A DNA stretch of 64,000 bases from an uncultured Tateyamaria sp. (GTDB lineage: Bacteria; Pseudomonadota; Alphaproteobacteria; Rhodobacterales; Rhodobacteraceae): assembly GCA_905480645.1 (NCBI GenBank), contig CAJQRC010000003.1, positions 1-64,000 on the forward strand, read 5' to 3'. This document shows, piece after piece, positions 59,659 to 64,000 of this stretch; the stretch's first letter is position 1; each line of letters begins with the position of its first letter. The notes under the pieces are model-generated. The model was not told where the DNA came from. It searched no databases and saw only the letters and a list, made by a program, of their open reading frames with translations. The position numbers and the translations under genes were made by a program.

Positions 59659-61422
59659 TCATAGATCCATATAGGAGTGCCTTTCTGCTTTTGCGCCAGG
59701 ATGAGTAACGGCGCCCAAGTAGGTAGAACCCACTAATTTTGCATACTTCCAGAGCGCGCCAGCACCGTATAAGGTCTCACGTGGGCCTTTCCAGTTGGAT
59801 TTACGCTCTTCCATTTCCTCTTCAGACAATGCAACATTTATAGAACCTTCTATTGCGTTGAGGGTGATAACGTCACCATCTTTCAACAAAGCGATAGGGC
59901 CCCCGTGGGCTGCTTCGGGACCTACGTGACCAACACAGAAGCCGCGGGTTGCACCAGAAAAGCGTCCATCAGTAATCAATGCAACTTTTTTGCCCATACC
60001 TTGGCCTGAAAGTGCTGCTGTTGTCGCCAACATCTCACGCATACCTGGACCACCAGAGGGTCCCTCGTTGCGAATAACAAATACATCACCTTCATCGTAG
60101 GTTCGGTTTTGTACAGCTTCAAATGCGTCTTGTTCGCATTCATAAATCCGGGCAGGGCCAGTAAAGATTTGGTGTTGGGCTTCCATACCTGCCACTTTAA
60201 CGATCGCTCCCTCGGGAGCGATATTCCCTGTTAAGCCCACAACACCGCCTGTTTTTGTAATAGGCGTTTCAATAGGGTAGATAACTTTACCATCAGCTTC
60301 CAGATCAATCTTATCCAACTCTTCTCCTATAGAATATCCGGTAGATGTGAGACAGTCTTCGTGGATTAAACCAGCTTTGCGCAGTTCTTTCATTACAACG
60401 GGCACGCCTCCTACCTCATAGAGGTCCTTGGCTACATAGGCCCCACCGGGCTTAAGATCTACAAAGTATGGGGTTTCCCGGAATATATCGCAAACATCTT
60501 GCAGGAAGAAATCAATTCCAGCTTCGTGGGCCATGGCAGGCAGGTGTAAACCGGCATTAGTTGATCCACCTGTACAAGCCACTATTCTTGCGGCATTTTC
60601 CAGTGATTTTCGAGTAACGATGTCGCGTGCACAGATGTTTTTATCAATAAGATTCATCACAGCAACACCAGAGGCTTTCGCATATTCATCACGAGATTCA
60701 TATGGTGCAGGAGCGCCCGCTGAGTTTGGCAAAGCTAACCCTATCGCCTCAGATACGCATGCCATGGTATTGGCGGTGAATTGACCGCCACACGCCCCTG
60801 CAGAGGGGCAAGCAACGCGCTCTAAAACTTCCAACTCGGCTTCTGTCATAGTGCCATTTTGTTGATGCCCGACTGCTTCGAACATATCTTGGACTGTTAA
60901 ATCACGGTTAGCATACTCTGCAGGCACTGCAGCGCCTTGGGGCGTACGACCTGGAAGAATTGATCCTCCATATAAAAAAACTGAAGGTACGTTAAGCCGG
61001 ATCATTGCCATCATCATACCAGGCAAAGATTTGTCACAGCCAGCTAAGCCAACGATGGCGTCATAGCAGTGTCCACGCATAGTTAGTTCTACTGTGTCAG
61101 CAATTGCTTCTCGACTTGCTAATGAAGAGCGCATGCCTTCATGGCCCATGGCAATTCCATCTGTGACAGTGATTGTTGTAAACTCGCGTGGTGTGCCGAA
61201 TGCTGCTTTTACGCCAACTTTAACCGATTGTGCTTGACGGTTGAGAGCAATGTTGCAGGGAGCCGCTTCGTTCCAGCAGGTAGCTACTCCAACTAATGGT
61301 TGATGAATTTCTTCCTCTGTCATGCCCATTGCATAGTAATATGAACGGTGGGGCGCACGTGCTGGCCCCTCAGTTACGTGACGGCTGGGTAATTTGGATT
61401 TGTCGAATTTGCCTTTAAGCAT
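59659..61422 (-). CDS. ilvD: Dihydroxy-acid dehydratase
   Basis: 587 aa from ATG 61422, chosen because GGGAG lies 8 nt upstream and '[20 protein letters not shown]' is a typical start; the track adds 19 residues. Fe-S ligand motifs '[17 protein letters not shown]' and '[18 protein letters not shown]', and the C-terminal '[19 protein letters not shown]'. It makes the 2-keto acid precursors of valine, leucine and isoleucine. Divergent from the partial ABC gene. Confidence 0.96.
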
Positions 61423-61598
61423 CTGAGTCTCCCTGAAAGCATTATTGAACGGAATACCCATTGCCTGAACGACCTGCAAGCATCAGAATACGAAGCACAG
61501 AGTTGTAATATTGTGTATCGAAGATTAAATTGATGCAGCGGCGTTAATTCAGAGAAAAAACAATCAGTTATTGCAAAATCTGCTGATCAGGATTGCTA

Positions 61599-64000
61599 AT
61601 GGATTCCACACTTTTCACTTTTATATGGAAACACTCCAAGCGTGAGCAGCTTTTTTTGCTTGCTTTGACGTTAGTAACGTTTCCGATTTTGTATATTACA
61701 CTGGAGTTGCCAAAACGTATTATTAACGACGCGATTGGCGCTGGACCTAGTGCCATGTTTATTTTTGGAGTGCAGGTTACACAAATCGAACTCCTACTGT
61801 CTCTCTGTTTTAGTTATTTAGTGGCTGTTTTTATACACGGCCTGCTCAAGATGAAACTGAATACGATGAAAGGCGTCACTGCGGAGCGGTTATTAAGAAG
61901 ATTTCGCTATCAATTGATAGGACGAATGTTGCGGTTTCCGCGAAATTATTTTCGCTCAACTAGTCAAGGTGAGCTGGTAAGTATGGTTACCTCTGAGGCC
62001 GAACCCATGGGGGGGTTAATGGGTGACATGGTTGCACAGCCCGTTTTTCAGTTGGGACAGATGCTTATAATCGTAACATTTTTGTTTTTACAATCAGTTT
62101 GGTTTGGACTGGCCGGTATCGCACTTATCCCACTGCAGGCGTGGCTTATTCCACAAATGCAACGCCAGATTAATTTACTGAATAAGGAACGAATTAAAGA
62201 AGTGAGAGCATTTTCTTCTGAAATTGGAGAAAGTGCTGCCGGAATATCTGATTTGCGTACAAATGGTGGTTTACGATATCGCCTCGCTCAATTCACGGAA
62301 CGCTTAGGGCGTATTTTTGAAATAAGATTTAAAATTTACCAAAAAAAATTTTTTATGAAGTTTTTGAATAATTTCATCACTCAATTAACACCCTTCTTTT
62401 TCTATTTAGTTGGGGGCTTTTTAGCCATTAACGGAGACATCACTGTTGGTGCACTCGTTGCAGCATTGGCCGCGTATAAAGATCTTTCAAGCCCATGGAA
62501 AGAACTGTTAGCCTATTACAATCAGACACAAGATATGGCTCTTCGTTGGGATATTGTGACTGAACGTTTTGGCCCTAAGGGTATGATTGACGAAAGCTTA
62601 TTTGATGGACAGGTGAACCCGATACCTCATTTGCGTGGAGATATTATTTTTGATAATGTTACAGTGCGCAATGCCGAAAATAACATCGTGTTAGAACAAA
62701 TTAATTTGAAAATTCCGCAAGGTACTCGCGTTGCAATTCAGGTAAAAAATCAGGCTGAGCGCACGGCGCTGGCCGAAATGTTAGCGCGAGAGCTTTTACC
62801 CACTCATGGTAAGATTACGATAGCTGAATACGATCTTTCCAAGTTACACCAAACAGTAGTTGCTGCTCGCATTGGTTATGCGCATTCCAGACCTTACTTA
62901 TTCAATGGCACTCTTGGCAGCAATCTTTTGATGCCTCTTATGACAGGTCCAAATTTTGTTGAGGGTGGGCAAGGCAAGTTAAATCACTCCAGTAATGAAG
63001 CCCATCGTTCGGGCAACAGTACAGATTACATTGATACTGACTGGGTTGACCCTGCACTTGCTGGGCTGGATTCTGCTGATGATATTCGGAAATGGTGGTT
63101 TGCACTGGCAGAAGCTATGGGGACTGATGAGTTTATGTTCCGACGCATGTTAAACAGTCGAATTGATCCGCATCAACATCCCGATTTGGCTAAAAAAATA
63201 GTAAAGCTCCGTTCGAAGGTAGAAGCCCGTTTAAGTAAAACTGACCTAAAAGACTCAGTTTACAGATTTGATCCTGATGAATTCAATCCTGCTCTGCCAC
63301 TTGGTGGCAATCTGTTTTTTGCTTCGTTATCCCGTGATATTAGCCAGCAAAGCCTGGCATCCGATAGTAGTCTTATTAAGCTGCTGTCTGATAATGGATT
63401 AGCTCAACAAGGAATTGCAATTTCTCAAACTTTAATTAAAAATTTGTACCAAACTTTTGGGACTGATGGCACCAACCACCCACTCTTCCCATCGGTTAAC
63501 ATCGAAGCAGCTCTATATGAAAAATTAGTAGATATTGCGCAACGAAGGGACGAAAAAGGTGATGGCGCTCTTACAAATGATGAGTTTGCGCTATTACTGA
63601 CAGTACCGTTTGCTTTTACGGCTGAACAATTTGGCGACTTATTTCAAGACGATTTTAAAAAGGAAATTGTGAAAATACGTAAGAGTCGGGGCGCTTCTTT
63701 AAGAGAACAGACTAGTGCGATTTTCACTCCAATTGATCCAGATAATTATCTGCCGCGCCTTACTATTTTGGAAAATGCACTTTATGGTCGCGTTGCTAGG
63801 ACGGCAGGTGTCAAGGCAGAAATGATCGAAGATTTAGTTGCTGAATTGATATCAAAATATGATGACCTGAGACGCCAAGTTGCCGAAACAGTTTTTGACG
63901 TTCGCACGGGCCTTGGTGGATCGAATCTTCCAACAGTTTTTCATGAACGCGCTGCATTTTCTCGCGCCAGCATCAAAAGGCCTGATATTTTAATACTTGA
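61599..64000 (+). CDS. Divergent ABC-exporter-like protein with degenerate ATPase motifs (partial, 3' end beyond window)
   Basis: Not in the track because it has no stop before the window end: ATG 61599 (AGGA upstream) opens at least 800 codons. Residues 1-~325 look like an exporter membrane domain: 'REQLFLLALTLVTFPILYIT', 'NYFRSTSQGELVSMVTSEAE', 'YLVGGFLAINGDITVGALVA'. An NBD-like strand follows ('FDNVTVRNAENNIVLEQINL'), but the P-loop position (~381-390) reads 'QVKNQAERTA', with no GxxGxGKS/T. A Q-loop-like 'IGYAHSRPYLFNGTLGSNL' lies near 424. A ~300-residue insert precedes the next NBD-like part; it contains 'DEKGDGALTNDEF' (651-663), an EF-hand-like loop. The signature region near 771 is altered ('TGLGGSNLPTVFHERAAFSR'), then 'ASIKRPDILIL'. 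Confidence 0.75.
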   Translation, partial: MDSTLFTFIWKHSKREQLFLLALTLVTFPILYITLELPKRIINDAIGAGPSAMFIFGVQVTQIELLLSLCFSYLVAVFIHGLLKMKLNTMKGVTAERLLRRFRYQLIGRMLRFPRNYFRSTSQGELVSMVTSEAEPMGGLMGDMVAQPVFQLGQMLIIVTFLFLQSVWFGLAGIALIPLQAWLIPQMQRQINLLNKERIKEVRAFSSEIGESAAGISDLRTNGGLRYRLAQFTERLGRIFEIRFKIYQKKFFMKFLNNFITQLTPFFFYLVGGFLAINGDITVGALVAALAAYKDLSSPWKELLAYYNQTQDMALRWDIVTERFGPKGMIDESLFDGQVNPIPHLRGDIIFDNVTVRNAENNIVLEQINLKIPQGTRVAIQVKNQAERTALAEMLARELLPTHGKITIAEYDLSKLHQTVVAARIGYAHSRPYLFNGTLGSNLLMPLMTGPNFVEGGQGKLNHSSNEAHRSGNSTDYIDTDWVDPALAGLDSADDIRKWWFALAEAMGTDEFMFRRMLNSRIDPHQHPDLAKKIVKLRSKVEARLSKTDLKDSVYRFDPDEFNPALPLGGNLFFASLSRDISQQSLASDSSLIKLLSDNGLAQQGIAISQTLIKNLYQTFGTDGTNHPLFPSVNIEAALYEKLVDIAQRRDEKGDGALTNDEFALLLTVPFAFTAEQFGDLFQDDFKKEIVKIRKSRGASLREQTSAIFTPIDPDNYLPRLTILENALYGRVARTAGVKAEMIEDLVAELISKYDDLRRQVAETVFDVRTGLGGSNLPTVFHERAAFSRASIKRPDILIL

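Follow-up and report, generated by a model that had tools for sequence, protein, structure and literature searches.

Exporter-Type Proteins in Transport and Regulation

ABC exporters are defined by their use of ATP. For example, PglK, a flippase of lipid-linked oligosaccharides, needs ATP hydrolysis, and exporters built as heterodimers, one of their two sites being weakened, are also a familiar kind. Other ABC proteins, SUR among them, regulate rather than pump, and SUR keeps nucleotide binding. Another example is HetC of Nostoc, a peptidase-containing exporter in which an N-terminal cNMP-type domain binds ppGpp and is needed for function (PMC10986499). The protein described here, encoded in a 64,000-nucleotide stretch of DNA from an uncultured marine Tateyamaria sp. 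(the window), resembles HetC in that a cNMP-type domain is joined to an ABC exporter; unlike HetC, whose ATPase and peptidase are working and whose additional domain is N-terminal, it appears to have lost the ATPase and carries the domain at the C-terminus. With MsbA and other type IV exporters (TIGR02203, PF00664 plus PF00005) the family shares the membrane domain, the NBD fold and the order of domains, but it differs from them in being without the P-loop, Q-loop, signature, Glu and His, and in possessing a segment duplication within the NBD and the C-terminal cNMP domain. It is also comparable to PglK as an exporter fold near glycosyltransferases (the NF050066 match is weak), although the requirement of PglK for ATP hydrolysis contrasts with the lost ATP motifs of this family. 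Like SUR, it would be an ABC exporter body serving regulation. No curated family in Pfam or NCBIfam describes the pseudo-ABC exporter, and no account of such a family was found in searches of the open-access literature. An exporter with a cNMP-type domain is already known in HetC; the new part is the seemingly dead, segment-duplicated NBD together with the NBD-free relatives.

Gene and Domain Organization

The pseudo-ABC exporter gene runs on the forward strand from an ATG at 61599 to a stop at contig position 64679 (1026 codons); AGGA is found six bases 5' of this ATG, and an alternative start, TTG at 61593, would give 1028 codons. The first 800 codons are in the window (61599..64000), and the remainder, to 64679, is beyond it, as a preliminary description based on the window had recognized when placing the C-terminus outside. 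Retrieval of the full gene, which that description had advised, added a C-terminal cNMP_binding domain (residues 902-987; PF00027, 6.4e-14), and a second complete NBD downstream, which would have refuted the preliminary description, was looked for in the full gene and not found. Residue numbers of the segments and of the EF-hand-like stretch discussed below are counted from TTG 61593.

The N-terminal region (residues 3-330, 61599..62582, forward strand) matches the ABC-exporter-type transmembrane domain (PF00664, 5.9e-20; ABC_membrane at residues 64-292), solved ABC exporters match it with values down to 7e-23, and a fold search agrees. The exporter-like membrane domain that had been noticed at first reading is thus confirmed, and by these matches it is of the type IV ABC exporter kind. 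The best NCBIfam match is the MsbA equivalog TIGR02203, but at 126.9 bits, against a cut-off of 602. The N-terminal half of a degenerate NBD follows (residues 345-450, 62625..62942, forward strand), recognized by a weak Pfam match (PF00005, 1.1e-6; ABC_tran at 367-465) and by the motif table, and containing the places of the lost P-loop (62736-62765) and of the lost Q-loop Gln (62874-62903). The NBD is split by an insert of about 260-320 residues between its halves, in agreement with the roughly 300 residues estimated previously. Further along the same strand come the degenerate signature (63915-63950) and the first part of Walker B, and the C-terminal half of the NBD runs on beyond the window edge (64000).

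Loss of the ATP Site

In an alignment to PCAT1, the P-loop GESGSGKT of that exporter reads VKNQAERT in the window protein, part of the stretch QVKNQAERTA that had been singled out earlier as a replaced P-loop. The Q-loop Gln is changed to Ser, the signature LSEGQ to LPTVF (an alteration also seen in the preliminary description), the Glu after Walker B to Arg, and the H-loop His to Glu. Judged by these residues, with all five motifs changed, the protein does not have the working ATP site of a type IV ABC exporter, and the loss of the ATPase site suspected earlier is supported, reaching across five motifs and the family as a whole. Of 113 full-length relatives, 3 satisfy the P-loop rule GxxxxGK[ST], all three from one distant family; these have also retained the Glu after Walker B and may still bind ATP to some extent. 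A His near the H-loop place is present in 3/113 relatives, and the Q-loop Gln in 1/113. As a control, other exporters of the same order were put to the same test, and both GK[ST] and LSGGQ were retained in 14 of the 20 loci; one of the remaining loci has GK[ST] only, and in the other five (5/20) the picked frame was possibly wrong.

A Duplicated Segment inside the NBD

Three segments can be recognized on the forward strand after the place of the Q-loop. Segment 1 (62907..63263) begins with the first NLLFG-type motif, GTLGSNLLMP (62907-62936), and matches the start of the canonical stretch between Q-loop and signature (hhalign 94.4%, E 9.5e-8). Segment 2 (63264..63722, from residue 558, beginning RFDPDEFNPALPLGGNLFFA), taken to be the additional copy, repeats segment 3 (63723..64000 including the signature and Walker B start, from residue 711, FTPIDPDNYLPRLTILENALYGR) over 56 columns (hhalign 97.3%, E 1.8e-11), and segment 3 matches the canonical Q-loop-to-signature stretch (hhalign 97.4%, E 9.7e-12). 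These profile matches of segments 2 and 3 indicate that the helical segment following the Q-loop of the NBD is present in the insert in one or more additional copies. Segment 2 alone reached 46% against canonical exporters, with membrane and cNMP controls near zero. Compared directly, segment 1 matches segments 2 and 3 weakly (27% and 17%, respectively), and for this reason its kinship rests on the match to canonical exporters. The Asn of the NLLFG motif is present at all three places in 112/113 members. The duplication is probably older than the loss of the P-loop, because it is also seen in members with an intact P-loop. The idea of a foreign domain within the insert was rejected, since Pfam and NCBIfam searches gave no match there and the profile comparison points to self-duplication; the recommended profile search of the insert brought up a copied NBD segment.

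In a structural model of the NBD plus insert, made for the Tateyamaria orthologue (pLDDT 88, pTM 0.80), segments 2 and 3 share a strand-helix-strand pattern. The model aligns from end to end with isolated NBDs, namely that of ComA (3vx4_A, TM 0.78) and that of TAP1 (1jj7, TM 0.77 by target length). From this whole-length alignment, the two halves are predicted to form one NBD still, with the NBD fold of type IV exporters kept (TM 0.78) and the insert, placed between the NBD halves as first described, looped out. For the full-length monomer, the model is weaker (pLDDT 79, pTM 0.65), and a fold search with the whole length returned mostly full exporters with low TM-scores, a result probably due to uncertainty in how the domains are placed in the predicted monomer.

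Conservation and Relatives without an NBD

Within the window's clade, mean pairwise identity is 78% in the membrane domain, 63% in the N-terminal half of the NBD, 55% in the insert, 57% in the C-terminal half of the NBD and 58% in the cNMP domain, and a similar pattern has been obtained for the other paralogue clade. In canonical exporters of the same order, the membrane domain has 29% and the NBD 52%; these exporters are a mixed set rather than one orthologous group, so that the ratio and not the levels should be compared. By that ratio, conservation is inverted relative to normal exporters, with the membrane domain above the NBD. The membrane domain, being the best conserved part, seems to carry the selected function, and we infer that the NBD is held by a weaker, non-catalytic constraint.

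This membrane-domain type is also found without any NBD, in TMD-only proteins of 314-437 residues. One group, in roseobacters and relatives (L120:8029-9333, L122:8670-9971, L123:8056-9294, L128:8540-9781, L130:8531-9730, L184:7773-9077), is about 40% identical to the window's membrane domain, has an extra N-terminal membrane segment, and is encoded in copper-resistance clusters, beside genes for a multicopper oxidase, a cupredoxin and a P-type ATPase; no NBD gene was found near these genes within the fetched stretch, and these copper-cluster relatives may have a different job. A tree of membrane domains has the copper group nested with the pseudo-ABC proteins; the separation of both from canonical exporters is fully supported, subject to a long-branch warning. 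A more distant group consists of short solitary proteins of 314-364 residues (L124:8360-9454, L125:8792-9745, L126:8320-9264, L131:8410-9354); an NBD-like ORF is present about 4 kb off in 2/4 of them. The family would have lost its ATP site step by step and later, among relatives, the NBD altogether, with the membrane domain ending as the best-conserved part. Such a family would make it directly testable what an exporter membrane domain does when ATP is not used, and in what way it could be driven by a cyclic-nucleotide domain.

The cNMP Domain and Gene Neighbourhoods

The C-terminal domain matches the PF00027 profile, and its phosphate-binding Arg is kept in 99/99 aligned members; the acidic residue of the phosphate-binding cassette is Asp or Glu in all 99/99, and its being Asp, not Glu, in 88/99 counts against the mechanism proposed below. 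By profile and Arg, the domain is likely a cyclic-nucleotide sensor. In all 18 of 18 distant alphaproteobacterial loci, the cNMP domain is either fused or encoded by a small gene within about 220 bases, and glycosyltransferases of the same kinds are nearby in 12/18. Plasmids of Rhizobium and Sinorhizobium have the family gene and a cNMP gene together with one to three annotated glycosyltransferases and a peptide-type ABC importer of four genes, and in Azospirillum the importer adjoins the family gene. Near distant members with a separate cNMP gene, genes for a DUF3095 protein, possibly cyclase-related, and for an MBL-fold protein (L137:4828-6006, L158:3169-4494) were also observed, whose products could make or remove the cNMP ligand. 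The relative in S. meliloti 1021, perhaps SMb20813, was considered as msbA2, an identity that was rejected given its position at 838-845 kb of pSymB and that of the ChvI site of the msbA2 operon at 938 kb.

Glycosyltransferase neighbours were not found in Rhodobacterales loci, where the conserved genes encode a CPBP protease, AccD and FolC. In the operon of the window's clade, the family gene is accompanied by genes for CPBP (68/81 loci), accD (70/81) and folC (69/81), and ilvD (59659..61479, reverse strand) is a conserved divergent neighbour sharing the intergenic region in 64/81 loci. The CPBP gene (L004:9676-10584), for an Rce1-like membrane protease with visible EExxxR- and HxxxN-type motifs, is directly downstream, with a 4-base overlap that recurs in 29/81 loci, and accD and folC come after it. 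In the stretch L005:7429-16505, the same-genome paralogue immediately precedes tamA- and tamB-like genes, and a DUF3307 gene is divergent. DUF3307 recurs in several other paralogue-clade loci and in Ruegeria TM1040, and tamAB does not; a functional link with TamA and TamB was dropped, as no other fetched paralogue-clade locus adjoins tamA-tamB.

Proposed Mechanism and Alternatives

On the strength of motif loss in 110/113 relatives, the inverted conservation, purifying selection, the predicted NBD fold, the cNMP association, the TMD-only relatives and the lack of a close active exporter in the genome, we read the protein, with middling confidence, as an ATPase-dead, cyclic-nucleotide-regulated protein of exporter fold, possibly a facilitator or sensor for glycolipids or lipids. 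The protein would be a dimer in which the pseudo-NBDs act as a scaffold, and through them the state of the cyclic-nucleotide domain would reach the membrane domain, causing the latter to open or shut a lateral path with no ATP hydrolysis. As a guess, the most likely cargo would be a lipid or a lipid-linked glycan, because of the glycosyltransferase neighbours of distant members, as distinct from the window's own clade, which is without them, and because MsbA is the best-matching family. More tentatively, the family as a whole may be regarded as an ATP-free device, in which one branch uses a dead, enlarged NBD to relay a cyclic-nucleotide sensor, another is NBD-free, and the membrane domain serves as a gated passive path for lipids or glycolipids, or as a receptor.

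The near-constant pairing with a cNMP domain, together with the CPBP gene in 68/81 loci and its 4-base overlap in 29/81, would also suit a membrane receptor or scaffold for the cyclic-nucleotide sensor, no longer a transporter and signalling to partners such as the CPBP protease; this is unlikely, as the constraint on the membrane domain (78%) and the existence of stand-alone TMD-only relatives favour a membrane-borne activity. The protein might instead be the degenerate half of a heterodimeric exporter whose active partner subunit burns ATP, a partnership that the preliminary description had proposed and that agrees with the presence of TM287/288 and TmrAB among the structural matches. To our knowledge, however, weakened subunits of known heterodimers keep their P-loop, which the window protein does not. 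No ABC subunit was found in the operon of the family gene in the neighbourhoods of the window's clade, the exporter that comes next in similarity within the genome has 22% identity (E 3.9e-6), and the same-genome paralogue, 48% identical, is equally P-loop-less. Moreover, both main paralogues are present together in 20 genomes of the order and one alone in 10, so they are not an obligate pair, and the heterodimer is unlikely.

Use of ATP through a changed site, with the nucleotide bound without the Lys of the P-loop as in some pseudokinases, would be in accordance with the Walker B Asp, retained (relative to PCAT1) in the window protein and in most relatives, and with the intact P-loop of the three distant members. 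On the other hand, the P-loop Gly and Lys, the Q-loop Gln, the signature, the catalytic Glu and the His are all changed, and the replacement residues differ from species to species, unlike a conserved new site, which makes this quite improbable beside the ATPase-dead reading.

Calcium sensing was suggested earlier from the sequence DEKGDGALTNDEF, which is present at residues 653-665 and was thought to fit an EF-hand loop. Under the rule D-x-[DNS]-x-[DNSG]-G-x-hydrophobic-x3-[DE], taken as six criteria to be conserved in the family, the 12-residue stretch DEKGDGALTNDE (63549..63584, forward strand) agrees with 5/6 in the window protein, the loop being broken by Lys at position 3. Asp at position 1 is found in 4/113 relatives, 0/113 agree with all six, the same-genome paralogue is without the stretch, a Pfam search of the full protein gave no EF-hand, and the stretch sits in an insert partly made by copying NBD sequence. 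The resemblance is best put down to chance; the insert is unrelated to EF-hands, the EF-hand reading is refuted, and a calcium sensor of this kind is hardly credible.

Distribution and Selection

A decaying pseudogene or an assembly artefact, which the loss of ATPase motifs by itself would fit, has a negligible probability and is refuted by the recurrence of this domain layout in over 100 genomes, by intact frames and by a dN/dS of about 0.03-0.2 in all regions, insert included; by these ratios, the family is under purifying selection. In a genome scan, 80 loci with identities of 54-74% were found, mainly in Rhodobacterales, and at least one near-full-length member was found in 31 of 121 genomes of the order. 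In a sample of the phylum, a match was obtained in 35/398 genomes, almost all of the same class. Plasmids of Rhizobium, Sinorhizobium, Azospirillum and roseobacters contributed 342 records, 192 of them covering at least 80% of the query and most annotated just as ABC transporter protein; the bare label "ABC transporter" on hundreds of database entries is misleading. The genome scan also gave copies in Moritella, a Granulosicoccus bin and a bin labelled Chromatiales. The gammaproteobacterial copies (L082, L084 (Moritella), L081, L079) are about 55% identical and point to horizontal transfer; among those placed on the tree, the Moritella and Granulosicoccus-bin copies nest inside a rhodobacterial subclade.
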